From: an uncultured Eubacterium sp.
GTDB lineage: Bacteria > Bacillota > Clostridia > Lachnospirales > Lachnospiraceae
DNA length: 15,083 nt
Reading direction: 5' to 3'
Assembly (NCBI GenBank): GCA_900548465.1
Contig: URKY01000051.1
Coordinates: 1 to 15,083, forward strand
In this document: positions 1 to 14,979 of the stretch, in pieces
Numbering within the stretch: the first letter of the stretch is position 1
How the letters are laid out: every line of letters starts with the position of its first letter
Program-made: the position numbers and the translations under genes
Notes under the pieces: model-generated
Database searches by the model: none
The model's input: only the letters and a program-made list of their open reading frames with translations
Told to the model about the DNA's origin: nothing

Positions 1-72
1 TCTTTAGGTCAGGCGGCTATCCATAATCCCTTCAAGGTAGAGGTTGCAATTAATTGGAAAAATAACAAATAA
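1..72 (+). CDS. 3' end of an unidentified upstream gene (partial)
   Basis: Frame 1 is open from the window edge to a TAA at 70-72 and encodes 23 residues beginning SLGQAAIHNPFKV. The mixture of G, A, H, N, P, F and W residues and the less A/T-rich codons look like a genuine protein C-terminus rather than noise, but 23 residues are too few to assign a family. It overlaps the TTG start proposed for the next gene (44) by 29 nt, or ends 10 nt before the alternative ATG at 83, so the two genes are probably co-transcribed. It could also be a chance open frame. Confidence 0.4.
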   Translation, partial: SLGQAAIHNPFKVEVAINWKNNK

Positions 73-3000
73 AGATATAGATATGGTAAGTAGGTATGAG
101 GGAGTTATTATATCTAAAAGTGAAGATAATTATAGTGTGGAAGAAAAAGAAATTTTAGGTATACTTTTGTTTAAAATTGGCGTTATATCTAAGGGGGATG
201 GAAATTTGAAATTTTCTATGAGAAAACTGGAAGAGGCATTGGATATCTATATAGATTTAAGTGTTTATGATAAACAGATGGAGAACAATGTAATCATAAT
301 ATATCAGGAGTTAATTGATATTAGCTTTGAGGATAAAACAGTAGACAATAAAAGAAAGATTGACCTTTGTAAGAAGATTTGTGCACATAGCAAATCATTG
401 CAGAAAAGATATGAAGGTTTTGAGGTGTACTATTATTATGGAATAAAGAGAACAATGGCATGTTTGGATGAAAAGTATGTATATACGGCATATGATCTGA
501 TTAGCGAATACAAGAAGGAGTTTGAACAGGAAATTAAAAAAGGGGAGGTTTTGGACCAAATTGATTACGATGTAATAATTAAAATTCAGAAAGAAATATA
601 TACAACATTTAATGTTGTATGCAAAAATTATTTTGAGACGATTGAAAGTAATGATACTGATGAAAAAGATGATATTAGCGAAAATGTTGAGATGGAAGAA
701 GATAATGATAACGAAAATGTTGAGAAGGAAGAAAATAATGGTAATTTGAGGCAGGTTAACAGCTTTATACAGTCGTGTAAAAGAAAAATATCACGGGAGG
801 TAATTGGGCAGGATCATGTTATAGAGGCTGCAACTACTTTATTATGGGATTATAAATTATGGGGACAGATGTGCATATTATTTCTTACGGGTGCACCGGG
901 ATGTGGAAAGACTCTTTTGGCAGGCAAGGTAGGAGAAGTTTTAGGATTACCGTGTAAAAAATTCACTATGTCGGAATATGCTTTTAAGGATTCTTTGGAA
1001 ACACTAATTGGATTTGATGAGACATACAAGGATTCAAAAGAAGGAATTTTAACAGGGTTTGTCAAAAAAAATCCAAAATCCGTAATTATATTTGATGAGA
1101 TTGAAAAGGCAGGAAATGATGTATTACAGCTTTTACTACAGGTTTTAGATTGTGGGAAGATGCACGATATATATTTAAATGAGGACATTTCATTTGAAAA
1201 TACAATAATGATATTTACATCTAATGTTGGAAAGAAAATTTATGAAAACGATGAACATAGTAATTTATCAGGGGTAACTCAAAAGGAACTTGAAGATGCC
1301 TTAGTAACAGAAATAAATCCGGTAACAAATACTCCTTTCTTCTCTCAGGCACTTGTATCCAGATTTAGTAAAGGTACAATGTGTATTTTTAATAAGTTAG
1401 CTGCGGAAAACCTGGTTAGTATTGCCGAAAAGAGTTTGAAGGATTGTTCTAAAATGTTTGAGGAAAACTATGGAATAAGAATTACTTGGGATAAACAGGT
1501 ACCTATTATGTTATTACTATCAGAGGGAGAGCTTGCGGATGCAAGAAAGCTAACCGGTAAGGCAGAAAAATATATTAAAGAACAGTTAAGAAAAACAGTT
1601 GACTTATACGATGTTAATGGGATAAGTAAATTCTTTGATAATTGCAAAGAGATACATTTTTCTGTAGATTTGAATGACGCAAATGAAGACGTAGGAATTT
1701 TAATGAAGAACAGCCATAAAATGGACACTTTGATTGTTCAGGCTAATAAATTTGCAGATAAGTACAAAAATGAGGTTAAACCTAGGTATGATATAATATG
1801 TACGGATGAAATGTTAAAAATTGAAAGCATCTTAAAGAATAAGCCTATTGGAAAAATATTTATAAATATAAGAGAAGAAAGTCACAGACATATAACAGGC
1901 ATGTGTTATAAGAAAATGCCAATAACGGCTAATAAATTTAGAACTGCCAGAGTAGTTATAAAAAATATAAATGAAAAATATCCGGAAATACCTATTTTTT
2001 TAATAGAAGACGAATTTGATATAGATACACATCTTGAAAAAGAATTTATTAATATAGGTGTTAGAAGGATTATACGTAAACAGGATGGAAAGTTGAAGGA
2101 AATAATAGAAGAAATAGACAAGAATTATAGCATGCAGAAAATGTTGGATAATATAATTTCACAACACAAATTTCTAGACTTTGATACAGTTCCAATTGAC
2201 AAAGGGGATAGTGAAAAAGTAACCTTGAGGATTAGAAATTTAACATTGAAACAGCAGGTTAAATCATCTGATAGGGAAGACTTAGTGAGTGGTATAAATA
2301 AACCAAATGTAAAAATGGAAGATGTTATTGGTGGAGCAGATGCAAAAAAAGAAATGGAATTTGCAATGAAGTACTTAAAGAACCCTGGAAAATATATAAG
2401 AGCAAAGGTTGAAATACCTAAAGGAATTCTCATGTATGGACCACCGGGGACAGGAAAAACAATGCTGGCAAAAGCGTTTGCAAACGAATGCAATGCAAAT
2501 TTTATATCAGCTAAAGGAAGCGAGTTTGTTAAGTCAACTACAGGCTCAGGACCTGAAAATATGAGAGAGTTATTTATTAAGGCAAGAAGATATTCCCCAT
2601 GTGTTGTTTTTATAGATGAAATAGATGCAATTGGTTCACAGAGAGGAAATGTTAACGCCCATAGTGAAGAAATGACATTAAATGCATTACTTACTGAAAT
2701 AGAAGGTTTTGACACAAATAAAAATAAAACTGTAATGGTAATAGCGGCAACTAATGCGGGAATAAACAGCGAATCAGGTTATGATGGAATAGGTAGATTA
2801 GATGAGGCATTGGTGAGAAGGTTTGATAGTTGTATTTTTGTTGATCTACCTACAACTGAAGAAAGAAAGGAATATTTGAAGAAAAGCCTTATGTCTGTTA
2901 ATAATAACGAGATATCTGAAGAAATGATACAGAACATAGCTGACAGAAGCATTGGTGCAAGTCTTGCAACTCTTGAATCTGTTAAAAACAAGGCAATACG

Positions 3001-3628
3001 TGAGTCTGTAATGGAAGACATGCCATTAACAAACGAAATCCTTGATAATGCATTTGAAACAATGCTATTCGGACAGGAAAAAACAGGAAATTGGGGTAAA
3101 AATGTGTCATTGAGGGTAGCACGTCATGAAACAGGACATGCATTTATTTCCTACATAAATAATGTTGGTTTGTCTTATGTAACAATATCATCAAGAGGAA
3201 ATTATGGTGGTTATGTTCAGCACACAGGCTCTAATAAGATATATACTAAAAATGATTTGCTAAAGAAAATAGATATAGCATTGGCAGGAAGAGCAGCAGA
3301 AATTGTTTACTATGGAGAGGAGGGCATAGGCACGGGTGCGTCACAGGACATATTGCAGGCCACAAGGATTGCTAAAGCAATGATTTGTGATTTTGGTATG
3401 GATAATGAATTAGGAATTGCAAATATTGGTAGTGATGAAATGAAAGGAGAACTTGGTCTTAAAGTTAATTCAAAGGTAAATGCAATATTGAATAGAGAAT
3501 TAGAGAAGGTAATCAAACTTATAGTAGAAAATAGAAACGTAATTGATAACTTCGTTGAAGTTCTCTTAGAGAGAAATCATTTAAAAGGTTCAGAAATAAA
3601 GCGGACTTTTGAAATATGCACTGCTTAA
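44..3628 (+). CDS. Fusion protein: ClpB-D2-like AAA+ ATPase, receiver-like region, FtsH-like AAA+ ATPase and M41 zinc metalloprotease
   Basis: Predicted ATP-driven protease of 1194 aa (TTG numbering). Residues 1-200 are helical and unrecognised, followed by an acidic linker at 203-234. A ClpB/ClpA second-domain-like AAA+ module has Walker A GAPGCGKT (283-290), Walker B FDEIEK (350-355), a TSN sensor 1 and an ADARK sensor 2. Residues about 580-692 resemble a degenerate receiver fold. An FtsH-type AAA+ module has Walker A GPPGTGKT (799-806), Walker B FIDEID (856-861) and Arg fingers R925/R926. The M41 domain has HETGH (H1028, E1029, H1032) and the third zinc ligand D1102 in ASQD, so it should be catalytic. 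Ordinary FtsH is about 600-700 aa with two N-terminal membrane helices; none is seen here, implying a cytosolic enzyme. Start: TTG 44 has AAGG 6 nt upstream, while ATG 83 has no clear SD but avoids overlapping the preceding frame. First gene of a unit with a PP2C and a kinase. Substrates are unknown. Confidence 0.9.
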   Translation: MQLIGKITNKDIDMVSRYEGVIISKSEDNYSVEEKEILGILLFKIGVISKGDGNLKFSMRKLEEALDIYIDLSVYDKQMENNVIIIYQELIDISFEDKTVDNKRKIDLCKKICAHSKSLQKRYEGFEVYYYYGIKRTMACLDEKYVYTAYDLISEYKKEFEQEIKKGEVLDQIDYDVIIKIQKEIYTTFNVVCKNYFETIESNDTDEKDDISENVEMEEDNDNENVEKEENNGNLRQVNSFIQSCKRKISREVIGQDHVIEAATTLLWDYKLWGQMCILFLTGAPGCGKTLLAGKVGEVLGLPCKKFTMSEYAFKDSLETLIGFDETYKDSKEGILTGFVKKNPKSVIIFDEIEKAGNDVLQLLLQVLDCGKMHDIYLNEDISFENTIMIFTSNVGKKIYENDEHSNLSGVTQKELEDALVTEINPVTNTPFFSQALVSRFSKGTMCIFNKLAAENLVSIAEKSLKDCSKMFEENYGIRITWDKQVPIMLLLSEGELADARKLTGKAEKYIKEQLRKTVDLYDVNGISKFFDNCKEIHFSVDLNDANEDVGILMKNSHKMDTLIVQANKFADKYKNEVKPRYDIICTDEMLKIESILKNKPIGKIFINIREESHRHITGMCYKKMPITANKFRTARVVIKNINEKYPEIPIFLIEDEFDIDTHLEKEFINIGVRRIIRKQDGKLKEIIEEIDKNYSMQKMLDNIISQHKFLDFDTVPIDKGDSEKVTLRIRNLTLKQQVKSSDREDLVSGINKPNVKMEDVIGGADAKKEMEFAMKYLKNPGKYIRAKVEIPKGILMYGPPGTGKTMLAKAFANECNANFISAKGSEFVKSTTGSGPENMRELFIKARRYSPCVVFIDEIDAIGSQRGNVNAHSEEMTLNALLTEIEGFDTNKNKTVMVIAATNAGINSESGYDGIGRLDEALVRRFDSCIFVDLPTTEERKEYLKKSLMSVNNNEISEEMIQNIADRSIGASLATLESVKNKAIRESVMEDMPLTNEILDNAFETMLFGQEKTGNWGKNVSLRVARHETGHAFISYINNVGLSYVTISSRGNYGGYVQHTGSNKIYTKNDLLKKIDIALAGRAAEIVYYGEEGIGTGASQDILQATRIAKAMICDFGMDNELGIANIGSDEMKGELGLKVNSKVNAILNRELEKVIKLIVENRNVIDNFVEVLLERNHLKGSEIKRTFEICTA
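680..745 (+). repeat. Tandem 33-bp duplication in the acidic linker
   Basis: Two adjacent in-frame 33-bp units, 680-712 and 713-745, match at 29 of 33 positions. They encode ENVEMEEDNDN and ENVEKEENNGN (residues 213-234) in the linker between the helical N-terminal region and the first AAA+ domain. The reading frame is kept, as expected for a flexible linker that tolerates length change. Confidence 0.85.
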
Positions 3629-3660: not shown

Positions 3661-4467
3661 ATGTTTTTAAAAAAATATTGTTCAGATAGGAAAAGAAGTT
3701 ATAAAAAAGTTAATGTAACGGGAATTTCACTGACAGGAAAAGGAAATAATAATCAGGATAACTGGTTCATTGGTGAGAATATATATGACAAAGAACAGGA
3801 GGTAAATACAAAATTAAATCTTGCCGAACCGATTGTAATAGGAATTTTTGACGGAATGGGAGGAATGGAATGGGGAGAAGAGGCTTCAGCTATTGCAGCA
3901 GACATGTTTAAACAGTACATACCATATATGAAAAAAAATAATGAAAGAGAGGATTTGGAAAAATTATATAGTCTGATTAATTTTGAAATATACAAATATA
4001 TGTATGAAAAAGGTGTACAGGGTGGGACAACTGCAGCAATAGCAATAATTAAACCCGAAGGTCAACTTATAGTAAGTAATGTAGGGGATAGTTTAATTTA
4101 CCTGTGCAGAAATAGAAGTATTACACAAATAAGTGATAATCAGTGCTTAGCAGGAATTCAACTAAAAAAAGGGATGATTACAGAGGAGACATATGAGTCC
4201 AGCAGTGATAAAAAAATTTTAATGTCTTCACTTGGCAGTATGGATGATTTAGAGAAAGAGAATATATTTTATAAAAGGATCAATGTGAATAAGGGAGATA
4301 AGATAATATTAGTTACAGATGGTGTGATTAATGCAATAGGAATGAAAAAACTAAGAAATATATGCAAAGAACGATGGGAATATAGTCGATTATTTGATAA
4401 AATTGTAGGTGAAATTAAGAAGATAAAAGACAAAGATGACTCAACGTTAATTATTGCCGGCATTTAA
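3661..4467 (+). CDS. PP2C-family Ser/Thr protein phosphatase
   Basis: A 268-aa soluble PPM/PP2C phosphatase, expected to remove phosphate from Ser/Thr residues using two Mn/Mg ions. The family motifs occur in order: NQDNW with metal ligand D33, GIFDGMGG with D64/G65, GTTAA at 122-126, NVGDS with D143, LVTDGV with D220, and KDDST near the C-terminus with D259/D260. No signal peptide, membrane helix or extra domain is visible, and the length is usual for a stand-alone bacterial PP2C such as PrpC/Stp. The gene starts 32 nt after the Clp-FtsH fusion stops and ends 15 nt before the kinase, so it is co-transcribed with both. It is the natural antagonist of the adjacent kinase; a role in dephosphorylating the protease is possible but inferred. 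A second PP2C is encoded at 10464-11231. Confidence 0.93.
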   Translation: MFLKKYCSDRKRSYKKVNVTGISLTGKGNNNQDNWFIGENIYDKEQEVNTKLNLAEPIVIGIFDGMGGMEWGEEASAIAADMFKQYIPYMKKNNEREDLEKLYSLINFEIYKYMYEKGVQGGTTAAIAIIKPEGQLIVSNVGDSLIYLCRNRSITQISDNQCLAGIQLKKGMITEETYESSSDKKILMSSLGSMDDLEKENIFYKRINVNKGDKIILVTDGVINAIGMKKLRNICKERWEYSRLFDKIVGEIKKIKDKDDSTLIIAGI

Positions 4468-4482
4468 AACAGGGAGGGAAAA

Positions 4483-6831
4483 ATGGATACACAAATCAGA
4501 AAAAACGAAATATGGAGTATAGGTGAAAGACTTGAAGATTGGGAGTTTGATCTAGTGATTAAGTTTATTAATATGGATAAGAAGAATAAAATTATGCTTT
4601 ATGCCAGTGTATTGTCAGATGATGAGGAATTGGGAGAAGTGATTAACAGTGGGGGATATGGTGCAATATGTTCTATTTATAGAGTTAGTAATGGTCAGAG
4701 AAAAGAGTTGCAGGATGTTGTAAAAATCGTTTGTGTAATGTATGATCCCAGAGATATGGAAAAGGACGAAAAAAGAGGTGGAGAAACATACAAAGAGGCT
4801 TTCGAAAAAAAATGGAATAGAGTAATAAGCGAGGGAGAAATACAGAATCGTTTATCATATAATGACCATATTCTAAAAAATTATGGTTATTCACGTACGA
4901 TTGACTATAAAGAAGGCCATGTCAATGGAAGAATTTTTTTGATACGAATGCATAAATATATGTCTTTAGATATGTATGTACGTAAGAAATATAAAGAAAC
5001 CGGTATGCATATGGACGAATTTGAAATAGTAAAAGTTGGAGAAAATATTAGTTCGGCTATGTGTGCAATGGAAGAAAATGATTTTATCCACAGAGATATA
5101 AAAGACAGAAATGTATTTGTAAGTGAAGAAAATCCGGAAAAAAAGAATTATATGTTAGGTGATTTTGGAGCAGTGGAATATCATACTGTCGGAACAGTAC
5201 AGGGGGTGTACCTCGGAGAACAGTGGGAAGTACCGGAAATTAGTTATGAATATAATCATGAAAAAAAAGTATACAGGTATAGCTCAAATTATAGTGGTGA
5301 AGGCTGCTATTCAACAGAATATACTTTTCAGAGTGATCAATATTTATTTTGTTGTATGTTGCTTGGATTAGGAGGAAAAAATAAGGAACTGAGTACGGCA
5401 TATCAGATTCAGGCTTATAGCAAAGATAAAAAAGAAGTAGTCATTAATCCATTTGAAAGTACAAAGTTGACAGAAATAATACAAAAAGGTTGGTCTGTTG
5501 TACCTGAGCATAGGTATGAGACAAATAAAAAGCTACATGAGGAATTTTTAAAATTGGAGCAGAATCTGGATGTTTGTAAAACTGGCTTTGTAGTATATAG
5601 AAAATGTATTGAGAACGGAAAGGAATTTTTTAAAGAAGAAACAATTGAAATTATCAGTGAAAATATTGGTAATAATAGTAAAAAAAATACAATATCATTA
5701 CCGGATAGTAAAATATTTAATATTAATATTAGAGTTTTATTAAAGAATGGTGAAACGTTTGAAAAAAGAGTAAGATTTGAAAAAACAGATAACGGACAGG
5801 ACGATTTATCGGATGTTAGAGTAAAAAGGTACAGACAATACTTAAAGTTTTATTTGTCAAAAACAGACGAAGAAAATGAAATGCCTGCAGCCATAGTAAA
5901 TCTTTTAGATTTAAGGGTAGATGCAAAAAAGGTTGAATGCGATTGGCATATACAGCCAGATAAAAGCAATGTAATTGGAGATGATAATGACAGAAAAAGT
6001 AAGGAAAACAATCTGAAAAATAATGATAGAAGTAATAAAACAATAAATAATAGTATAAAAGAACTTATTACATCAGAAGAAATAAGACATAAAAATATTA
6101 TTGAAAAGAATGAATTAGCCTATGATAAATATTGGAAACATTTGTATCACAAAAAGGATGAATTGTTTTCTCTAGGTTTGGTGTTAATTATAGCGTCGAT
6201 ATTTTGCTTAGCATTGGGTTATAATGATATTTGGGGAGTGGTAGAAAAGAACAATAATTTTTACGATAGTATTGTATGGATTGCTAATGGAAAAGTAGGA
6301 CAAATTATATTAGCGACGGCTATTGCAGCTATTGTATTTATAATTGTCCAAAGGGTGATATACAGTAGACAGAAAACGAGATATTGGAGTAAAAAATGGG
6401 ATAATGAACGAGCAAGGAATAATCTGATATCTAATCTAAAAGAGAGAGATAATTATGACAAAACTAAAAGTGCGGCTGATGATCTATTTAGAACACTTGA
6501 AAAAGAAGGGGATAGACTAGAAAGAAAGAGTGGTATTCTTACAAAGATTATATATACTTATTTGTCCATAATAGCAGTCATAGGATATTATGAATTAATA
6601 GTTTGCGTTAATATAAACATTAATAATAAATGGTTAGGTAATCTGGTTTATATAGGATTTATATTGGTAGGAGCTTTAGTTTTTGAGCTATTGAAAGCAA
6701 CTTTGTTGATCTTTATTAAAAGTGGTGCAAATAGTGTGCAAGCTGATAAAAAGCGTGAAGAACTAGAGTTTGAGATGCAACAGTGGAATAATATAGAGAA
6801 AGCAATTAGTTCAAATAAGAGCACTAAATGA
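4483..6831 (+). CDS. Membrane-bound Ser/Thr protein kinase with four C-terminal transmembrane helices and no PASTA repeats
   Basis: A 782-aa eukaryotic-like kinase. The kinase domain spans about 45-345: a shortened glycine loop SGGYG (56-60), catalytic Lys K81 in VVK, a probable alpha-C Glu in SEGEI (117/119), HRDIKDRN (203-210) with D205, K207 and N210, DFG 227-229, and VPE (250-252) in the APE position. All catalytic residues are present, so it should be active. Residues about 365-490 are a beta-rich unrecognised region, then a K/N/D-rich linker, then hydrophobic segments at about 561-580, 605-627, 686-709 and 718-745, with a charged helical stretch between the second and third. Typical Firmicute PrkC/Stk kinases have one helix and external PASTA repeats; this architecture differs. 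A strong SD (GGAGG, 4473-4477) precedes the ATG. It follows the PP2C by 15 nt and is closed by a terminator at 6868-6917. Confidence 0.92.
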   Translation: MDTQIRKNEIWSIGERLEDWEFDLVIKFINMDKKNKIMLYASVLSDDEELGEVINSGGYGAICSIYRVSNGQRKELQDVVKIVCVMYDPRDMEKDEKRGGETYKEAFEKKWNRVISEGEIQNRLSYNDHILKNYGYSRTIDYKEGHVNGRIFLIRMHKYMSLDMYVRKKYKETGMHMDEFEIVKVGENISSAMCAMEENDFIHRDIKDRNVFVSEENPEKKNYMLGDFGAVEYHTVGTVQGVYLGEQWEVPEISYEYNHEKKVYRYSSNYSGEGCYSTEYTFQSDQYLFCCMLLGLGGKNKELSTAYQIQAYSKDKKEVVINPFESTKLTEIIQKGWSVVPEHRYETNKKLHEEFLKLEQNLDVCKTGFVVYRKCIENGKEFFKEETIEIISENIGNNSKKNTISLPDSKIFNINIRVLLKNGETFEKRVRFEKTDNGQDDLSDVRVKRYRQYLKFYLSKTDEENEMPAAIVNLLDLRVDAKKVECDWHIQPDKSNVIGDDNDRKSKENNLKNNDRSNKTINNSIKELITSEEIRHKNIIEKNELAYDKYWKHLYHKKDELFSLGLVLIIASIFCLALGYNDIWGVVEKNNNFYDSIVWIANGKVGQIILATAIAAIVFIIVQRVIYSRQKTRYWSKKWDNERARNNLISNLKERDNYDKTKSAADDLFRTLEKEGDRLERKSGILTKIIYTYLSIIAVIGYYELIVCVNININNKWLGNLVYIGFILVGALVFELLKATLLIFIKSGANSVQADKKREELEFEMQQWNNIEKAISSNKSTK

Positions 6832-6867
6832 AAAAAATCTGAAAGATAAAGGATAATAAGTACATAG

Positions 6868-6917
6868 AGGACATGTGTTGAAGCAAAAACGATTTGTTTC
6901 AATACGTGTCCTTTTTT
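6868..6917 (+). terminator. Long-stem rho-independent terminator after the kinase gene
   Basis: The arms 6868-6887 and 6893-6912 pair over 20 bp, with two G-U wobbles, around a 5-nt loop, and a T run at 6912-6917 follows. It lies 36 nt after the kinase stop codon, so it should end the protease-phosphatase-kinase transcript and separate it from the FHA-rodA-pbpA unit. Orientation is plus-strand, because no matching T run exists on the other strand. Confidence 0.88.
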
Positions 6918-7693: not shown

Positions 7694-9040
7694 ATGGAAT
7701 TACTGAGGTACAAAAATGTAAAAAGAAATATATACAATGTAAGTAAAAGCACGTTATGTATAATGCTTTTACTTTTAGAACAGATAATTTTTACAATTTT
7801 TATGTTTACACGAGGAAAATCAGATGAATATTTATCCATTGTGTTATTAATATCAATTATGAACATTGCCGTAATTCTTTTGACGCATATTGTCGATGGG
7901 AGTTTGAAATTCTCTTTTTTATGGCAGTCCCTTGTAAATATAGGAATAGTGACACAGTTGTTATGCGGAGTAAATTTAAAAACAATTGTAGTTATAAATG
8001 GAGTATCTCTATTTGTGGGTGCAATAATAGCGGTACTTCTCTTAACAATAAATGAGGAGAAAAATACAAGAAAAATCAGGATAATATTTTTTATATTAGA
8101 TATCCTTATACTGGTTGTACTGATGTTATTCGGGAAGATGGTAGCAACTACTTCGGCATGGCTTTCTATAGGAGGAAACAGTCTACAACTAACGGAAATC
8201 AGCAAGTTTATTTCTCTTATGTATATAGCAGCTCTTTGGGAGGATAAGAGGTTAACTGACAAAAAGAAAATTAAATTCAATCTGATATTTCTAATGACAA
8301 ACACAGTATTCTATCTGGTTATAGAGGAAATGGGAACATTAATAATCATATATTTAATGTCGATTATAGCTTCTTATATTTTTTGCAGAAAACAAAAGTA
8401 TGCAATAACTATGTTATCGATTATTGTCGGAATGACAGGTGTAGGGATATTTTTACTATTTATAGCACACCTGATAAGCAGCAAGACATCTGTATCTATT
8501 TTTCAAATTGCTAATAATGTTTTCTTGAAACAACAGCATAGATGGGATATGTGGTTAAATATTAAAAAGTTATCCAGCGATGCTACATATCAGATTGTAA
8601 CAGCACAGAAAGCAATAACTATAGGTGGACTTTTTGGTAGTTCACATACTTACTATATACCGGCTGGAAGTACAGACTTTATCTTTGTATCACTTATTCT
8701 GAAATTAGGATATTTCCTTGGGATTATTGTTTTAGTATTTTATTTTGCCATGCTGATGGAAGGATTAATAATTTCTTACAAAAACAAGGGGATTAAAAGA
8801 ACCATGGACGGTATCTTTTCAATAGCTTTGTTTACTCAAGCTTTACTTATGATCCTTGGCTCGTGCCGGGCCTTCATTTTAACGGGAATTGGGGTTCCAT
8901 TCTTGTCCCGAGGGGGCTCCAGCCAGGTGATAGCTACAGTGAGCGTGTTTTATATTCTTCTATCCAGTGGCAAAAAGGATATAACAAAAAAAATAAAAAA
9001 AACTGTTAATTGGAAAAGAGGTGGCAAAAATGAAAATTAG
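7694..9040 (+). CDS. SEDS-family peptidoglycan glycosyltransferase (RodA/FtsW/SpoVE type)
   Basis: A 448-aa polytopic membrane protein with about ten hydrophobic segments, expected to polymerise lipid II into glycan strands together with a class B PBP. Family landmarks: WLSIGG...LQLTEISK (156-171), matching the SEDS 'RW..IG...QPSE..K' loop; MGT (213-215); the long extracellular loop with TYQIVTAQKAITIGG (298-312); IPAGSTDFIF (322-331), matching the 'LPE.HTDFIF' motif; and PFLSRGGSS (402-410), matching 'PF.SYGGSS'. The candidate catalytic Asp is D296, before TYQI, but the loop is about three residues shorter than usual there, so this assignment is less sure. A strong SD (GGAGAAGG, 7681-7688) follows directly after the FHA stop. 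The end overlaps the transpeptidase gene, implying translational coupling. The motifs cannot separate RodA from FtsW; the partner suggests the actinobacterial RodA-PbpA type. Confidence 0.92.
   Translation: MELLRYKNVKRNIYNVSKSTLCIMLLLLEQIIFTIFMFTRGKSDEYLSIVLLISIMNIAVILLTHIVDGSLKFSFLWQSLVNIGIVTQLLCGVNLKTIVVINGVSLFVGAIIAVLLLTINEEKNTRKIRIIFFILDILILVVLMLFGKMVATTSAWLSIGGNSLQLTEISKFISLMYIAALWEDKRLTDKKKIKFNLIFLMTNTVFYLVIEEMGTLIIIYLMSIIASYIFCRKQKYAITMLSIIVGMTGVGIFLLFIAHLISSKTSVSIFQIANNVFLKQQHRWDMWLNIKKLSSDATYQIVTAQKAITIGGLFGSSHTYYIPAGSTDFIFVSLILKLGYFLGIIVLVFYFAMLMEGLIISYKNKGIKRTMDGIFSIALFTQALLMILGSCRAFILTGIGVPFLSRGGSSQVIATVSVFYILLSSGKKDITKKIKKTVNWKRGGKNEN
9017..9024 (+). promoter_or_regulatory. Ribosome binding site that sets the transpeptidase start at 9030
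   Basis: AGAGGTGG ends 5 nt before ATG 9030 and lies inside the last codons of the SEDS gene. The upstream GTG at 9021 is part of this SD, so ATG 9030 is the likelier start (464 aa). Confidence 0.7.
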
Positions 9041-10424
9041 AAGGACGTTTTTAAAGGTAAATAATTGGATAAATTATAATAGTGGTGAAAACTACATAAG
9101 TGTAGACGATGCAAAAGTTAAGTTTAGAGGGAAAGTTATATTTGCTTCAGCCATATGTATATTAATTTTTTTCATTTATTACCTCACAATACAGTCAGGC
9201 ATTGTACGTAGTGCAAACAAAGAGGTAGATCTTAGAATGGATTCGGCATTACAGGAGTCAGCAATTCAGAGCACAATAGAAGGAAACATAATTGACAGGA
9301 ACAGAAGGATAATTACAGAAGCAAAGAAAGTTGGGGAAGTCAGTTATTGCCTTTATCCTATTGTGTATTCAAATATAGTTGGATATGAAAGCAAAATGTA
9401 CGGGGCATCTGGTCTAAGATACAGATATAGAAAGGAATTATACAAAAAAAATAAAAATGGAAAAGGATGCAACATAATGCTCACGACAGACACTGAACTT
9501 CAAAAATACGCTTATGAACTTTTGGGAAAAAACGTTGGATCAATTATTGTATTAAAAAATAAAACCGGCGAGATTTTGGCTATGGCATCAAGAAACTCCA
9601 GTGAGATAGAATTCAATGTTAATATAATTAATAAAAATTATGAAAAATATGCAAATATACCAAACTTTTTTTATACCAACGCTGTATTTGGAAGTGACGC
9701 ACCAGGCAGTACTTTTAAAATTGTAACTGCAACGGCTCTCATAGACAGTGGACATGAAGACTATATTTATAATGATTATGGGAATTATAGAGGAATAAGA
9801 AACGTAGGTAGAGTTGCATACGGAGAGATTGGAGTTCAAAAGGCTTTATCCGTAAGCAGTAATACATACTTTGCAAAAGTGGCAACAGATATTATTGGAG
9901 GAAAAAAACTTTCAGAAACAATGTCAAAATATATGCTGGGAAAGGAATTGAAATTAGATTTTACAACTTTAAAATCAACAAAAGATTTTAATACTTTTGA
10001 TAACAACGAAGTGGCCATGATTGGATTCGGACAAGGTAGACAAACCATAACTCCGTTAAATATTGCAATGGCTTTATCTGCTAATGTAAATGATGGAAAG
10101 ATGATGAAACCTTATTTAATAAAATCAATTGACAATAATACAACCAAACCAGAGGTTCTGTCTGTTGTGTCAAGTAAAAATACGGCACAAAAAGTAAAAA
10201 AATTATTAAATGGGGTTGCTGAATATTACGGACTAGGTGGTGAATATTATGCAAAGACAGGAACGGCACAAATAGGAAAAGGAGAGTATAATCACATCTA
10301 TTTAGTGGCTGCAAACAACGAGTATACGGTAGCAATCAGTTTGAATGCGACTAAACAAACGAGTGGCTCATTGGTTCCTATTTCAAAGAATTTATTTAAT
10401 TATTTGCTAAAAAATGAAGTTTGA
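9030..10424 (+). CDS. Class B penicillin-binding protein, PbpA-like transpeptidase
   Basis: A 464-aa D,D-transpeptidase that would cross-link peptidoglycan outside the membrane (ATG 9030 numbering). It has a short cytoplasmic tail, one membrane helix at about 35-54, and a compact N-terminal domain with GNIIDRN (86-92) and a GASGLRYRYRKEL stretch, matching the 'RG.I.DRNG' and 'G.SGLE..Y...L' landmarks of FtsI/PbpA. The transpeptidase motifs are complete: STFK with the nucleophile S227 and K230, SSN (276-278) and KTGT (409-412). No PASTA domain follows, and the N-terminal dimerisation region is much smaller than in PBP2 or SpoVD. The length and layout match actinobacterial PbpA of roughly 490 aa. 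Overlapping the SEDS gene by 11 nt, it is almost certainly its dedicated partner. It is probably beta-lactam sensitive, as all acyl-enzyme residues are intact. Confidence 0.93.
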   Translation: MKIRRTFLKVNNWINYNSGENYISVDDAKVKFRGKVIFASAICILIFFIYYLTIQSGIVRSANKEVDLRMDSALQESAIQSTIEGNIIDRNRRIITEAKKVGEVSYCLYPIVYSNIVGYESKMYGASGLRYRYRKELYKKNKNGKGCNIMLTTDTELQKYAYELLGKNVGSIIVLKNKTGEILAMASRNSSEIEFNVNIINKNYEKYANIPNFFYTNAVFGSDAPGSTFKIVTATALIDSGHEDYIYNDYGNYRGIRNVGRVAYGEIGVQKALSVSSNTYFAKVATDIIGGKKLSETMSKYMLGKELKLDFTTLKSTKDFNTFDNNEVAMIGFGQGRQTITPLNIAMALSANVNDGKMMKPYLIKSIDNNTTKPEVLSVVSSKNTAQKVKKLLNGVAEYYGLGGEYYAKTGTAQIGKGEYNHIYLVAANNEYTVAISLNATKQTSGSLVPISKNLFNYLLKNEV

Positions 10425-10463: not shown

Positions 10464-11231
10464 ATGTTAAAAAGAAAAAATAAATTAATAAGAATAAGTG
10501 CAGCTACAGATATTGGTTCGAGAACTCAAAATCAGGACAATTTTGTTATATATGACAAAATAATCACTGTAGATCAAGACTGTTCCCTGTGTTGTATGCT
10601 GGAACAAGAATGTAATAAGGTATACTACGCATGTGCTTGTGATGGGATAGGTGGAGGGAAAAATGGTCGTGAAGTGTCTAAACTCTGTTGTATAGAAGTT
10701 GAAAAGTACCTGAAAAAGAAAAATTTAAGAGAAGAAAACGTTATTGAAGAAGTGATGGAATGTATAGATTACGTACAAGTTAAAGTAAATGAATATTTAA
10801 AAGCGGATGAAGGAGGATGCACATTGGCGCTGTTAGTGTGGGTAAACGACAAATATTATTCATTTTCAATTGGAGATAGCATAATATTTAGATATTCCAA
10901 AGTACTTAAACAGGTAAATGAATGTCAGACTCTAAAAGAGCATAAAGAAAAAACGGGACGCAAGAGTAGGATTGAAAAAAATGACAGCCATATACTTATA
11001 AATTATGTTGGCCGAAGGTTAACTGAAGGCTCAGAGATGGTTAATATAAGCATTGGAAAGATAAAGCGAAGAGATAAATTTGTTATAATATCAGATGGGG
11101 TAATAGATATGGGAAAAACAGAGTTAGAAAAGAAAATAAAGGATGGGGAAAAAGCGAAAAGTATAATAGACATTGCCTCAAAACAGCCGAATGCTGACAA
11201 CTGTACAATGATTATTATAGAGATGCCATAA
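10464..11231 (+). CDS. Second PP2C-family Ser/Thr protein phosphatase
   Basis: A 255-aa soluble PPM/PP2C phosphatase. The motifs run RTQNQDNF (D25), ACDGIGG (D60, G61), GGCTLALLV (117-125), SIGDS (D138), IISDGV (D211, G212) and ADNCT (D245, N246), so the metal-binding set is complete. It is cysteine-rich between 40 and 76 (seven Cys), unlike the other PP2C of this window, and clearly diverged from it, so they are not a recent tandem duplication. AAGGAG at 10450-10455 precedes ATG 10464. It sits 39 nt after the transpeptidase stop with no terminator between, so it belongs to the FHA-rodA-pbpA transcript. By position it corresponds to actinobacterial PstP, encoded beside rodA. A plausible job is reversing phosphorylation of the FHA protein or the synthase; this is inference. 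Confidence 0.92.
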   Translation: MLKRKNKLIRISAATDIGSRTQNQDNFVIYDKIITVDQDCSLCCMLEQECNKVYYACACDGIGGGKNGREVSKLCCIEVEKYLKKKNLREENVIEEVMECIDYVQVKVNEYLKADEGGCTLALLVWVNDKYYSFSIGDSIIFRYSKVLKQVNECQTLKEHKEKTGRKSRIEKNDSHILINYVGRRLTEGSEMVNISIGKIKRRDKFVIISDGVIDMGKTELEKKIKDGEKAKSIIDIASKQPNADNCTMIIIEMP

Positions 11232-11313: not shown

Positions 11314-12171
11314 ATGAGAATGTCATTAGTAAAAGCAAAATGTCCTAAGTGTGGACAAGTACTAGGAGTAAACAGTAGAAATGAAGCGGAAATATGCACA
11401 TATTGTGGAGTTCCATTTATTACAGAAAAAGCAATTAATACATATAATTTTGAAAATGGAAGGAGCTCAAAAACAAATATTTATAATGTAAATAATAGCG
11501 AAGATTTTGAAATAGTTGGAGGGGTTTTAAAAAAATATCTGGGAAATGAATTGGAAGTAATTATTCCAGAAAGTGTACTTGAAATTGACAATTCAGTTTT
11601 TGCAAATACTTATATAGAGAGTGTGGTATTGCCGAATAAAATTAAAAAAATCGGAGTGGCGGCCTTTAAAAATTGTAAAAATTTAACGAGAATAGAATTT
11701 CCGGAAAGCCTTGAGGAAATTGATGCATATGCATTTAAAGGATGTATATCATTGACAAAGATTAGGATTCCTTCAAAAATAAAAATAATATGGTTTGAAA
11801 CATTTGCAGGATGCACAAATCTTGCTCAGATAGAATTATGTGAAGGGCTAACCAAACTAGAATCAGATGCATTTGGAAATTGTTCTATAGAGAGTATTAT
11901 CATTCCGAAAAGCGTTAATTACATACAAGTAACAGACCATTATGATTGGAGAGATGCATTTAGTGGTTGCTCGAATTTGCAAAGTATAACATGTCCTGAT
12001 CCAACATCAAAAGCAGTATTGAATTGGTTGAATTATTCAGATGAGCCAATAGCAATAAAATATAGAGTAAAAAAGTGGAAAGATAAAGGCGTATGTACTT
12101 ATTGTGGAAGCCCTTTTAAGGGAATTGTAAATGTTAGATGTAGCAGATGTAATAAAGAAAAGAACTACTAA
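11314..12171 (+). CDS. BspA-type leucine-rich-repeat protein with a zinc ribbon at each end
   Basis: A 285-aa protein of unknown role. Residues 10-31 form a zinc ribbon (CPKC at 10-13, CTYC at 28-31). Residues about 80-228 hold BspA/LRR_5 repeats of roughly 23 residues, seen as repeated 'IP..L..I...AF.GC..L..I' patterns, for example AFKGCISLTKIRIP, TFAGCTNL and AFGNC. Residues 261-279 form a second ribbon (CTYC, CSRC). There is no signal peptide or membrane helix, unlike the secreted BspA proteins, so it should be cytosolic. LRR surfaces usually bind proteins and zinc ribbons bind proteins or nucleic acid. An AAAGGA SD (11304-11309) precedes ATG 11314; ATG 11320 is an alternative. It follows the second PP2C by 82 bp in the same direction and ends 20 bp from a convergent gene. 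It may be a scaffold or kinase target of the cluster, but nothing in the sequence proves this. Confidence 0.85.
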   Translation: MRMSLVKAKCPKCGQVLGVNSRNEAEICTYCGVPFITEKAINTYNFENGRSSKTNIYNVNNSEDFEIVGGVLKKYLGNELEVIIPESVLEIDNSVFANTYIESVVLPNKIKKIGVAAFKNCKNLTRIEFPESLEEIDAYAFKGCISLTKIRIPSKIKIIWFETFAGCTNLAQIELCEGLTKLESDAFGNCSIESIIIPKSVNYIQVTDHYDWRDAFSGCSNLQSITCPDPTSKAVLNWLNYSDEPIAIKYRVKKWKDKGVCTYCGSPFKGIVNVRCSRCNKEKNY

Positions 12172-12176
12172 TACAT

Positions 12177-12199
12177 ATGAATAGAGATCATCTATTCAT
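12177..12199. terminator. Palindrome between convergent genes, possible weak bidirectional terminator
   Basis: Perfect 9-bp arms around a 5-nt loop (GATCA) lie between the two convergent stop codons and cover the stop codon of the minus-strand dGTPase gene (12192-12194). The position fits a shared transcription end, but the stem is A/T-rich and no T run follows on either strand, so a termination role is uncertain. Confidence 0.35.
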
Positions 12200-13397
12200 C
12201 AAAATATCCAATATATTCAACCTTGTGCTTTCCTTTTGGAAACAGGTATTTATACAAATCCACAAAATAATCGTCCGTCATACTGGCAATGAAATCTACG
12301 ACAATGTCCTCCGGAGTATTATTCTCATAATCATTCCCGGAATAATAGCCTGCCAGTTTATTTACATAGGATATATGATGCTTGTAAATAATAGAATTTT
12401 TGTTATGTGCTTTAGCATCTTCTAATAATCTCCAATAAATTTCTTCCACCATTGGATTAATTTCTTCATCATATACCCTTTGTACTTTCTTATTTCCATA
12501 AATCATTTCATAGTTTTCGCTTTTTCCCTTGGAAAACGCTTGGAAAAATTCTTCATCCATTTTCAGGTAATCCTTACCATAACTGTTTTCAACAATATTT
12601 ACAATCATATTGTTGATTATTTCTGCATTAGTGCTGCCTATTTTTCCACCAAAATATTCCGGTTCACTATCAAACAAACCTAATTTCTGTGCATCCTGAC
12701 GGTCCTTTCCTAAGTATGCGATAATATCTGAAATACGCATTACGCAGGCTTCCAATGTAGCTGGTACAAGTTTTTTGTTGGCATCAGCGTCTACATAACA
12801 TTCTTCAACTTTATTATCAAAAACTTCAAAATCCGCATACGGACGGGGCATATATTTTTCCAATTCCATTTCCCCATTGTGACACACAATACCATCCAAA
12901 GTCTGCATACTGAGATTTAATGGAAAAATTTTGTCCAAAACCCTTACACTGTGTACATTGTGATTGAAAAAACGTCCCGTGCTCTCATTGTATAATTCAT
13001 TTAACTTTCGCTCGCCGGCATGTCCAAATGGAGTATGTCCGATATCATGACCTAAGGAAATTGCCTCAATTAAGTCAGTGTTTAATCCAAGCAGCCCCCC
13101 GATATTTCTCGCAATTCTGGATACCAATTGCACATGACTGGAACGTCTTGAAATATCGTCATTCTTATATAAAGAAAATACCTGAGTTTTGTCTGCGTAT
13201 CGATTATACATGGGTAAATGCATAATTTTTTCACAATCACGGACAAAAGACGGACGCAAAAGTTTGTTCTTATCCCTGTTCATGTTTCTGCGAAGAACAT
13301 CCTCATTGCGAAATGCATAAGGATTTACCCAATGGGCTTCCCGGTCCGCAATTATTCTTTTCTGCAATTCTTCAGATAAATCATTATAGTTTGGCAT
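12192..13397 (-). CDS. dgt: HD-domain dGTPase-like deoxynucleoside triphosphohydrolase
   Basis: A 401-aa HD-superfamily enzyme, predicted to cut dNTPs (classically dGTP) into deoxynucleoside and triphosphate. The family signature is strong: RRSSHVQLVSRIAR with metal ligand H88, then GHDIGHTPFGHAGE (116-129) with H117/D118 and the catalytic-region H121 and H126, then HNGE (173-176), and RISDIIAYLGKD with the last metal ligand D224. The N-terminal region contains the usual DR..R landmarks in diverged form. At 401 aa it is somewhat longer than the roughly 330-350 aa common in Firmicutes. GGAGG (complement of 13406-13410) precedes the ATG. The gene lies 58 bp downstream of the Lon-like ATPase on the same strand, so the two are probably one operon. 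Substrate preference among dNTPs cannot be read from sequence. Housekeeping and antiphage roles are both known for relatives. Confidence 0.88.
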   Translation of the reverse strand: MPNYNDLSEELQKRIIADREAHWVNPYAFRNEDVLRRNMNRDKNKLLRPSFVRDCEKIMHLPMYNRYADKTQVFSLYKNDDISRRSSHVQLVSRIARNIGGLLGLNTDLIEAISLGHDIGHTPFGHAGERKLNELYNESTGRFFNHNVHSVRVLDKIFPLNLSMQTLDGIVCHNGEMELEKYMPRPYADFEVFDNKVEECYVDADANKKLVPATLEACVMRISDIIAYLGKDRQDAQKLGLFDSEPEYFGGKIGSTNAEIINNMIVNIVENSYGKDYLKMDEEFFQAFSKGKSENYEMIYGNKKVQRVYDEEINPMVEEIYWRLLEDAKAHNKNSIIYKHHISYVNKLAGYYSGNDYENNTPEDIVVDFIASMTDDYFVDLYKYLFPKGKHKVEYIGYFDE

Positions 13398-13455: not shown

Positions 13456-14940
13456 TTACAATAAAAGTTCTTTAACCATCTTAGCATCAAAAGTAACTGA
13501 TTTAACATTATTTACTTCTATCTGATAGAGGGCATTTGCCGTAATGTGTTCTGCTGCCTGCTCTAAATCTCTGATACCACTTGTGTTCTTGTAAATGTCA
13601 ACTACTGCATCAATTGCTTCAGAAGTCATAATACACTCACTCTCTTTTAAACCAATTCTCTTCAAAGTCTTTGGCAAAGCAAATTTACTGAAAATAATTT
13701 TCTTTTCTTCTGTTGTGTAATCAGGTAATTCAATTACTGCAAATCTTGACATAAGTGGTGCACTAATCTGTGATTTGTCATTAGCAGTAGCAATTGGATA
13801 TACGCCAACTGTCGGAATCATACATTCCATATAGTTATCTGTAAATCCAAGATTATCAAGAAGTGTCAGTAAGACATCTGCCGGATTTCCTTTTCCGTTT
13901 CCTGAGGTAGCCTTGTCTAATTCATTAATAATAAATACAAGGTTTGACTCACCAGCCACCGAAAAAGCATCCATAATGATACCCGGTTTTGCATTTGTAT
14001 ATATACGTGAACTTCCTGTCAACTGCTCAGGATCATTGATCGAACTCATATCCAAAGTTGTCCATGGCAATTTTAAAATACGGGCAACTGCATAGGCAAT
14101 CTGTGATTTTCCCGTTCCTGCAGGTCCTACCAATAAAAGACCATATGCAGGAAGTGTATGGGTACGGTTAATCTGAATAATCGTCTCAATAATTCTTTGC
14201 TTTACTTTTTCCATACCATAAAGCTCTTCATCCAAAATCCTTCTTGCTTCATCAGGATCAATTGCTTCAAAATAATTATTTTTCCACTGAATGTTCATCA
14301 TTATGGAAAGTGCTCTCTGGGCATGATGTCTCTCTTCCTGAGATACTTCACTGGAACGGGCAACTGCAAGATTTCGGCGTGCCCAAAGACGTATATTATC
14401 AGGTAAACTTCTTCCGGCACAGTTCATAAAATCAGTAATGCTCTGAAGACTTGTAAGTTTCATGCTATCGCCTTCCTCTTCCTCATCTTCATCAATAACT
14501 TCCTCTGCAGGTGGATTACTTGCTAACAGTCTTTCAATCATAAACTGCAGAAATCCGTCTTCGGCTGAAAGTTTTGTACCGCCCCCAAAGGCTGTCTCAC
14601 GAATCTTATATACTGCATATCCCTCTTCCTGATTTTCACCTGATAATCTTACATTAATATGATTTTCACCAAGCCATTTAAGAAGGCTTACAAACCTTGA
14701 ATCTATTTTCAAAATATCAGCACTTACAGTTCCATCTTCTTCATTAAATTCAAAAGAAGTCCTTTTGATAGGATTTGTAAAAACACCACTTGAATGATGC
14801 TTCCACTGACGGTTTTTATTGTCCAAATACATTATAGGTGCATCAGCTGATGCAACACTGTTATTAGAACGAAATGTTGTGTATGTACATACACCTTTTT
14901 TGTTGTCATCCGGTGTATTATTAAAATCAAAAACTGCCAT
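13456..14940 (-). CDS. Lon-type AAA+ ATPase without a protease domain, with an altered Walker B motif
   Basis: A 494-aa protein from ATG 14940. Residues 1-225 are unrecognised, with an acidic run at about 145-158. An AAA+ module closest in pattern to the Lon ATPase domain follows: YGMEKVKQRI (241-250), Walker A GPAGTGKS (272-279), the PGIIMDAF segment, sensor 1 ATAND (385-389), an Arg-finger candidate R399 in MSRF, ELPDYTTEEK (404-413), and sensor 2 in GIRDLE (R457). Walker B reads FIINELDK (336-343): the usual Asp is Asn339 (codon AAT, complement of 13924-13926), while catalytic Glu340 remains. There is no Lon protease domain or Ser-Lys dyad, so it is a remodeller or chaperone rather than a protease. 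An upstream ATG at 14970 is possible but lacks an SD. First gene of a likely operon with dgt. Function unknown; a MoxR-like chaperone role is another possibility. Confidence 0.85.
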   Translation of the reverse strand: MAVFDFNNTPDDNKKGVCTYTTFRSNNSVASADAPIMYLDNKNRQWKHHSSGVFTNPIKRTSFEFNEEDGTVSADILKIDSRFVSLLKWLGENHINVRLSGENQEEGYAVYKIRETAFGGGTKLSAEDGFLQFMIERLLASNPPAEEVIDEDEEEEGDSMKLTSLQSITDFMNCAGRSLPDNIRLWARRNLAVARSSEVSQEERHHAQRALSIMMNIQWKNNYFEAIDPDEARRILDEELYGMEKVKQRIIETIIQINRTHTLPAYGLLLVGPAGTGKSQIAYAVARILKLPWTTLDMSSINDPEQLTGSSRIYTNAKPGIIMDAFSVAGESNLVFIINELDKATSGNGKGNPADVLLTLLDNLGFTDNYMECMIPTVGVYPIATANDKSQISAPLMSRFAVIELPDYTTEEKKIIFSKFALPKTLKRIGLKESECIMTSEAIDAVVDIYKNTSGIRDLEQAAEHITANALYQIEVNNVKSVTFDAKMVKELLL

Positions 14941-14946
14941 AGTTAT

Positions 14947-14954
14947 TCTCCTTT
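14947..14954 (-). promoter_or_regulatory. Ribosome binding site that sets the Lon-like ATPase start at 14940
   Basis: The minus strand reads AAAGGAGA, ending 6 nt before ATG 14940. This favours 14940 over the in-frame ATG at 14970, which lies close to the predicted -10 element. Confidence 0.7.
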
Positions 14955-14979
14955 TGTTTGTAAAATTCATTTTTATTCT

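Follow-up and report, generated by a model that had tools for sequence, protein, structure and literature searches.

Introduction

According to the parts consulted of a 2020 review of AAA+ proteases, FtsH and Lon have motor and protease within the same subunit, whereas the other enzymes keep the protease module apart, and the Clp D2 and FtsH motors are placed in different AAA+ clades (PMC7226402). Here we describe a gene that joins a Clp-D2-like motor, an FtsH-like motor and an M41 zinc protease in one reading frame. It stands at the left end of a stretch of 15,083 nucleotides, called the window throughout (contig URKY01000051.1 of assembly GCA_900548465.1, from an uncultured Eubacterium sp. 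of the Lachnospiraceae), and is followed by genes for a PP2C phosphatase, a Ser/Thr kinase, an FHA protein, a SEDS peptidoglycan polymerase and a penicillin-binding protein (PBP). The original prediction, made from the sequence alone, held that the product is a self-contained cytosolic protease with two rings, possibly controlled by the neighbouring kinase and phosphatase.

The closest known cluster of kinase and cell-wall genes is the actinobacterial pstP-rodA-pbpA-pknA-pknB-fhaA-fhaB locus, in which PP2C, kinase, FHA, SEDS and PBP genes, all shared with the window, are grouped for cell-wall control (PMC6554272). The text of that paper contains the word FtsH 0 times and protease once, and the portion consulted names no such protease. 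The window kinase also differs: four membrane helices are predicted for it, and Pfam matched no PASTA domain. The FtsH ternary conflict systems, in the portion seen of their description, have two FtsH-type AAA+ domains, the first catalytically dead, and MoxR and vWA partners (Kaur et al., 2020, PMC7159879). The fusion protease has in common with these systems two AAA+ domains, the second of the FtsH type; its first motor, however, is of the Clp D2 type with intact Walker A and B motifs, and an M41 domain follows. A Pfam scan covering the ten window proteins found nothing for vWA, and no model for MoxR reached its cut-off, the upstream gene lying outside the window and the neighbours of relatives outside the scan.

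Results

Two unlike motors and a zinc protease in one frame

The fusion gene occupies a single uninterrupted frame (44-3628, forward strand; 1194 amino acids, aa) when counted from TTG 44, the start adopted in the original prediction. Because TTG 44 falls within the upstream frame that ends at position 72, ATG 83 (1181 aa) is the likelier start. By eye, no clear ribosome site was seen for either codon, and a phmmer search with the 23-aa upstream tail against the frames of the related loci gave nothing significant. Residue numbers below are those of the 1181-aa form, and Pfam coordinates those of the 1194-aa form.

Pfam matched AAA_2 at residues 280-419, AAA at 795-934 and Peptidase_M41 at 1024-1187 (E-values in Table 1), and the NCBIfam ClpA profile matched through its D2 part (profile positions 448-717 of 734). 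These E-values, together with the recurrence described below, show that the matches did not arise by chance. The best solved structures by sequence (best 60 of 345) were p97/Cdc48-type AAA proteins and FtsH, and the FtsH half is about 34% identical to the solved FtsH 3kds. As in FtsH (TIGR01241), a classic AAA motor precedes an M41 domain with an HExxH motif and an Asp as third ligand. In contrast to FtsH, the fusion protease carries an additional Clp-D2-like motor and a receiver-like domain on its N-terminal side, and lacks, as judged by hydropathy, the typical N-terminal transmembrane anchor: its maximal 19-residue hydropathy is 1.29, as against at least 2.33 in all 20 canonical FtsHs. A stretch above 1.6 was found in 8 of the 80 fusion relatives, the highest being 2.09. 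Moreover, the FtsH_fam profile (TIGR01241) scored 295 bits over aa 752-1185, below its cut-off of 600, so that the equivalog score was not reached. With the HSP100 proteins (ClpA, ClpB and ClpC) the fusion shares the type of its first motor, which aligns to domain D2 of ClpA and of ClpB; the order of motors is nevertheless inverted, the D2-type motor coming first and the classic one last, and the protease is part of the same chain. The frame, the two motors, the M41 zinc site and the lack of membrane helices were all as originally predicted, but the receiver-like domain and the loss of a pore-loop aromatic residue had been missed.

Catalytic and pore-loop residues

Aligned with its relatives, the window protein retains the Walker A and B motifs of both motors, the arginine-finger positions, the HExxH motif and an Asp as third zinc ligand. 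The catalytic His, Glu, His and Asp residues are kept in all 74 aligned relatives, and so are arginines 427, 912 and 913; six of the 80 loci are omitted from these counts (L004 and L014, and L011, L024, L059 and L074, which are cut at contig ends). Aligned columns give a better count than strict motif patterns, which were applied to the window and the 80 loci (81 sequences) and recovered the first-motor Walker A in 81, the second-motor Walker A in 79, HExGH in 78 and, with a tight pattern, the third ligand in 65.

At Tyr315, in the pore loop of the first motor, an aromatic residue is kept throughout both alignments counted (84 of 84 and 74 of 74). The pore position of the FtsH ring is aromatic in 76 of 84 aligned family members, and the Blautia parvula ring bears a Tyr, whereas the window protein and its nearest relative have lost the aromatic residue, which in the window protein is replaced by Thr819-Thr820 (nucleotides 2537-2542). 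This suggests that in the window protein it is probably the first ring that does most of the pulling. Unfoldases of the Clp/HSP100 type dock to ClpP through a loop motif of the IGF/LGF type. The loop pattern was found in 78 of the 81 sequences, the window protein included, and in these the corresponding I/L-G-F/L tripeptide is absent from the expected loop.

A receiver-like domain between the motors

The AlphaFold2 model of the fusion protease has a mean pLDDT of 82. Most motor and protease blocks reach at least 85, the first motor ranges from 84 to 98 across ten-residue blocks, and the N-terminal 220 or so residues are modelled with low confidence. Since a Foldseek search with the whole model gave FtsH-type AAA proteases and Ycf2-FtsHi motors among its best 50 rows, the middle domain was modelled separately, and the predicted model has the (beta-alpha)5 fold of CheY. 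The phospho-acceptor position is Asp in 65 of 74 relatives, Asn595 in the window protein and Gln in the Blautia protein; the Thr and Lys positions of the acceptor pocket are not kept. As for the N-terminal region, two of the relatives P0005, P0121 and P0095 have precomputed Clp_N (PF02861) matches, and one, named DUF6977 family protein, matches PF22397. N-terminal domains thus vary across the family.

A patchily spread family

A homologue search of 5.8 billion proteins yielded 2073 matches at an E-value of 1e-20 or below; 7993 candidates were scored, and in all of the best 120 the first motor, second motor and M41 parts of the family profile were covered. A copy 99% identical to the window protein, probably from the same organism, is found in ENA (P0002); among the matches listed, the next relative (P0003) is 51% identical and the rest at most 41%. 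The few sources that give relatives a name mostly use "AAA family ATPase", with one each of "ATP-dependent metalloprotease FtsH", "DUF6977 family protein" and "hypothetical protein". A pattern search of reference genomes gave 405 matches, of which 311 were confirmed; the 80 best loci were retained. The fusion gene is present in all 80, in 76 at full length, one of these on the complete chromosome of the isolate Blautia parvula NBRC 113351, and in four cut by a contig end (L059 and L074 show the front part only). That two genes were joined by an assembly or sequencing error has nothing but the rarity of the gene in its favour; this recurrence rules it out, and we regard its probability as negligible.

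By record title, the 80 loci are mostly from Clostridia, many of animal gut; further loci come from bins labelled Treponema, Tannerellaceae, Synergistaceae, Deltaproteobacteria, Kiritimatiellaeota and others, where some contigs may have been mis-binned. The distribution is patchy, since sampling of the Blautia family found the fusion in 6 of 397 genomes, the Blautia genome itself included. Lachnospiraceae bacterium AC2029 is another isolate with a member of the family. At least one further M41 match was found in each of 25 carrier genomes checked (partial in G404). The genome of locus L025 (G416) holds two fusion-size M41 genes (1147 and 1157 aa) plus an ordinary FtsH.

A quick tree of the FtsH half (108 of 112 rows; L011, L059, L074 and L090 were left out for want of the motif pair) separated the 20 canonical FtsHs from 88 fusion rows by a branch with an SH-aLRT of 100. 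Two rows, L072 and L092, form long branches of unsure placement, the former carrying a warning that it attaches next to the canonical rows. A second quick tree of 77 of the 108 rows, from which long branches, some close kin and 15 of the 20 canonical rows had been dropped, agrees with the split. The fusion architecture was not found described in the titles and abstract openings of the papers that searches of an open-licence library listed, a scope that leaves subscription papers mostly outside. The fusion protease is thus seemingly an undescribed bacterial family. Of the two outcomes named in advance as refuting the original prediction, an already described family and an assembly error, neither came about.

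Genomic context of the fusion genes

On the Blautia parvula chromosome (L031), consecutive genes on one strand encode a SEDS protein, a PBP, a kinase with leucine-rich repeats, an FHA protein, a PP2C phosphatase, an FHA-kinase, the fusion protease and a further PP2C phosphatase. A 377-aa gene without a Pfam match at an E-value of 1e-4 and then a further kinase-profile match follow. Window and Blautia proteins are 38% identical for the PBP and 26% for the SEDS protein. When the window protein, P0003 and L031 were forced into a clade, the tree was not rejected (p-AU 0.775), and it had a better likelihood than the one from the quick unconstrained search. Loci of the cell-wall type, two of which were seen, may therefore mark one branch of the family. 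In L031, a weak terminator-like site falls between the genes for kinase and FHA protein (6202-6214), and the SEDS gene is preceded by a stronger site (494-519).

The neighbours of the 80 fusion loci (1,224,027 bases) were compared with those of 20 control loci around canonical FtsH genes, drawn from 11 of the genomes that supplied fusion loci (382,988 bases, the control loci thus being longer on average). A kinase was found near 28 of the 80 fusion loci and near none of the controls (Fisher p 7e-4), using neighbour profiles seeded from the window and the fusion loci, whose training may favour the fusion loci over the controls. In 17 of the 80, a kinase-profile match is an upstream frame on the same strand, ending within 300 bases of the fusion gene (that of L036 is a 109-aa piece at a contig end). 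Furthermore, a search with the kinase part of P0080 found 221 matches, and 8 of the best 120 have a kinase fused to both motors and M41 in a single polypeptide (P0079, P0080, P0123, P0124, P0125, P0128, P0130 and P0137); P0122 (partial) and P0131 have the kinase and the motors and no M41 match. The kinase link of the family is real but not universal.

YbjN-like proteins were found near 27 of the 80 fusion loci and none of the controls (Fisher p 1.3e-3). A protein of about 600 aa without assignment (17 loci), RyR-domain proteins (9), leucine-rich-repeat proteins (8) and Hsp70 (4) were likewise missing from all 20 controls. A kinase, PP2C or FHA gene occurs in 29 loci and a YbjN, RyR, Hsp70 or 600-aa gene in 39, with both contexts in 5 and neither in 17. 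The contexts cluster on the tree (8 label changes for the kinase-linked context as against 21.3 when shuffled, and 13 against 28.7 for the other), yet neither forms one clean clade. In a sister branch (L009, L012, L017, L018, L056 and others) the fusion gene adjoins genes for YbjN-like, RyR-domain and 600-aa proteins; the last have no Pfam match and, by eye, an RyR-like C terminus. In a Tannerella bin (L061, 3776-9081), two related tandem Hsp70-type genes, the second confirmed by Pfam and the first placed by sequence clustering, lie directly upstream of the fusion gene.

Neighbouring genes in the window

The features of the window are collected in Table 1. The frame of the first PP2C gene is listed from 3616, and ATG 3661, which follows GGAG, is the likelier start. 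The hydropathy peaks of the kinase lie at residues 561-579, 608-626, 693-711 and 727-745. Terminator-like rows numbered 7 in the window against 5.9 expected; two of them represent the hairpin listed in the table, and the remaining stems have 5-6 pairs. Promoter-like sites were at chance level (81 against 78.3 expected), and no regulatory RNA in the window matched Rfam at the gathering threshold. On the reverse strand lie a gene for a dGTP triphosphohydrolase-like HD protein (12192-13397; below every NCBIfam cut-off listed) and one for a Lon-type AAA+ ATPase of 504 aa (13456-14970), which matches the ATPase part of Lon alone (positions 266-568 of the 795 in the profile) and neither the Lon protease nor the N-terminal domain.

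Table 1. Features of the window, with positions in nucleotides from its first letter.
Feature	Position	Strand	Evidence
C-terminal tail of upstream gene	1..72	+	frame 1, stop 70-72; read from sequence
Clp-D2/receiver-like/FtsH/M41 fusion protease	83..3628	+	1181 aa from ATG 83; Pfam, NCBIfam, fold model
First motor, Clp-D2-like AAA+ with lid	764..1702	+	aa 228-540 of 1181; AAA_2, whole-protein E 6e-33; ClpA D2
Receiver-like (CheY-fold) domain between motors	1718..2161	+	aa 546-693; fold model
Second motor, FtsH-like classic AAA	2426..2845	+	AAA, E 1.5e-46; FtsH_fam
Peptidase M41 zinc-protease domain	3113..3604	+	E 3.8e-28; HExxH 3125-3139; third ligand Asp 3347-3349
PP2C phosphatase	3661..4467	+	Stp1_PP2C 1e-33 (below cut-off); PP2C_2 4.4e-9
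Ser/Thr kinase, four predicted membrane helices C-terminally	4483..6831	+	Pkinase 4.9e-11
Terminator-like hairpin, 20 pairs and T-rich tail, between kinase and FHA genes	6867..6913	+	
FHA (phosphothreonine-binding) protein, one predicted membrane helix	7015..7680	+	FHA 1.7e-9; FhaB_Rv0019c 3e-8 (below cut-off); one hydropathy peak
SEDS (FtsW/RodA-type) peptidoglycan polymerase	7694..9040	+	FTSW_RODA_SPOVE 1.5e-27
Class B penicillin-binding protein (PBP2-type transpeptidase)	9021..10424	+	Transpeptidase 1.1e-39
Second PP2C phosphatase	10464..11231	+	PP2C_2 5.3e-8
Zinc-ribbon/leucine-rich-repeat protein	11314..12171	+	LRR_5 8.7e-37; weak zinc-ribbon matches

Discussion

We propose, giving it an about even chance of being right, that the fusion protease is a self-contained two-ring protease that serves as an output of Ser/Thr-kinase signalling and that, in the branch of the window, is tied to peptidoglycan synthesis by the SEDS-PBP pair. 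The domains, the active-site residues and the confident fold support the predicted self-contained cytosolic protease, whereas the two-ring hexamer itself is a projection from them. Six chains would form a stack that begins with a Clp-D2-like ring and continues through a receiver-like layer and an FtsH-like ring to a ring of M41 zinc-protease domains. The first ring would grip a substrate by its aromatic pore loop, and the substrate would then be threaded onwards into the M41 chamber and cut there, with no need for ClpP. The kinase and PP2C would set the phosphorylation state and the FHA proteins would read phospho-threonine, which would make the protease the output arm of a switch based on Ser/Thr phosphorylation; docking or gating would most likely take place at the receiver-like and N-terminal regions. 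In the window branch the pathway may be coupled to the adjoining SEDS-PBP synthase, and because of this adjacency a cell-wall or division protein would be the likeliest substrate or partner.

Several observations weigh against this proposal, in addition to the possible bias of the neighbour profiles. Fifty-two of the 80 loci have no kinase within the available stretch, although some contigs are short. PP2C, found near 15 of the 80 fusion loci and 1 of 20 controls (Fisher p 0.18), and FHA, near 13 and 0 (p 0.065), are not significant alone, and a SEDS and a PBP gene each occur in a single one of the 80 besides the window (controls, 0 of 20). The architecture is therefore not always next to PP2C and kinase genes, a point that the original prediction had put up for checking, the sister branch having YbjN, RyR and Hsp70 neighbours instead; of the predicted control, the kinase side is supported by the statistics and the single-chain fusions, and the phosphatase side is not supported by PP2C counts taken alone. 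Within the window, the strong 20-pair hairpin parts the fusion, PP2C and kinase genes from the FHA, SEDS and PBP genes, which possibly form two transcription units. Finally, with Asn or Gln at the acceptor position, two-component phosphorylation of the receiver-like domain is unlikely in the window/Blautia branch.

The protein might instead be a general cytosolic quality-control protease that clears misfolded proteins with chaperone-like partners and stands near signalling genes by happenstance. Its first motor is of the disaggregase/unfoldase type, the sister branch neighbours YbjN-like, RyR-type, 600-aa and Hsp70 proteins more than kinases, and the YbjN enrichment over controls is significant. 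Unlike housekeeping proteases, however, the fusion is rare and additional to ordinary FtsH, and the kinase linkage is strong, with kinase fusions in or near the window protein's own branch; we consider this explanation unlikely, if still one of some weight. It seems rather improbable that the locus is a defence or conflict system, in which a kinase-sensed trigger turns on the protease and kills or arrests the infected cell. The patchy spread would fit, as would kinases with TPR, WD40-type or leucine-rich-repeat parts that adjoin the fusion or resemble those fused to it. FtsH-like AAA proteins do occur in published conflict systems, but with a dead first FtsH domain, in the part seen of that account (PMC7159879). 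In PADLOC, the FtsH motor matched the anti-phage ATPase IetA model most strongly (7e-40), the first motor matched PDC-M37B (1e-21) and the window kinase weakly matched defence-kinase models, yet each match concerns a lone motor or kinase domain, no partner gene of such systems was recognised in the window, and an NCBIfam IetA-type model scored 133 bits against a cut-off of 510. Membership of a known defence system was rejected on these grounds, and the SEDS and PBP partners fit cell-wall control. Carriage by phage was likewise rejected, the 46 viral matches to the first-motor query being weak; the top-scoring one is 31% identical over query residues 2-144, figures that concern matched regions rather than full genes.

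It is also conceivable, with a small probability, that the window protein has an FtsH ring of reduced motor strength and acts mainly as a regulatory unfoldase or a slow processing protease. The Thr-Thr replacement of the pore aromatic in the window protein and its nearest relative, the loss of the receiver-site Asp and the unusual letter make-up of the window sequence point this way; an argument against it is that the window protein keeps both Walker motifs, the arginine-finger positions, the HExxH motif and the third ligand unaltered.

A broader form of our proposal, a protease output of kinase signalling, can be put forward only tentatively, and we think it somewhat unlikely as a whole. The family would then join FtsH and Lon as a third type of AAA+ protease whose motor and cutting domain belong to the same chain: cytosolic, with two unlike motors and a receiver-like gate, and with proteolysis switched directly through phosphorylation by a eukaryote-type Ser/Thr kinase, sometimes part of the same polypeptide, here to control SEDS-PBP synthesis. 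The family would add to the known architectures one in which Clp-type and FtsH-type motors and a protease share one soluble chain. It would lend itself naturally to studies of how one substrate is shared by two unlike motors, and of whether proteolysis can be gated directly by bacterial Ser/Thr kinases. Both questions are open to experiment through the complete Blautia parvula locus and the forms that unite kinase and protease in a single chain.

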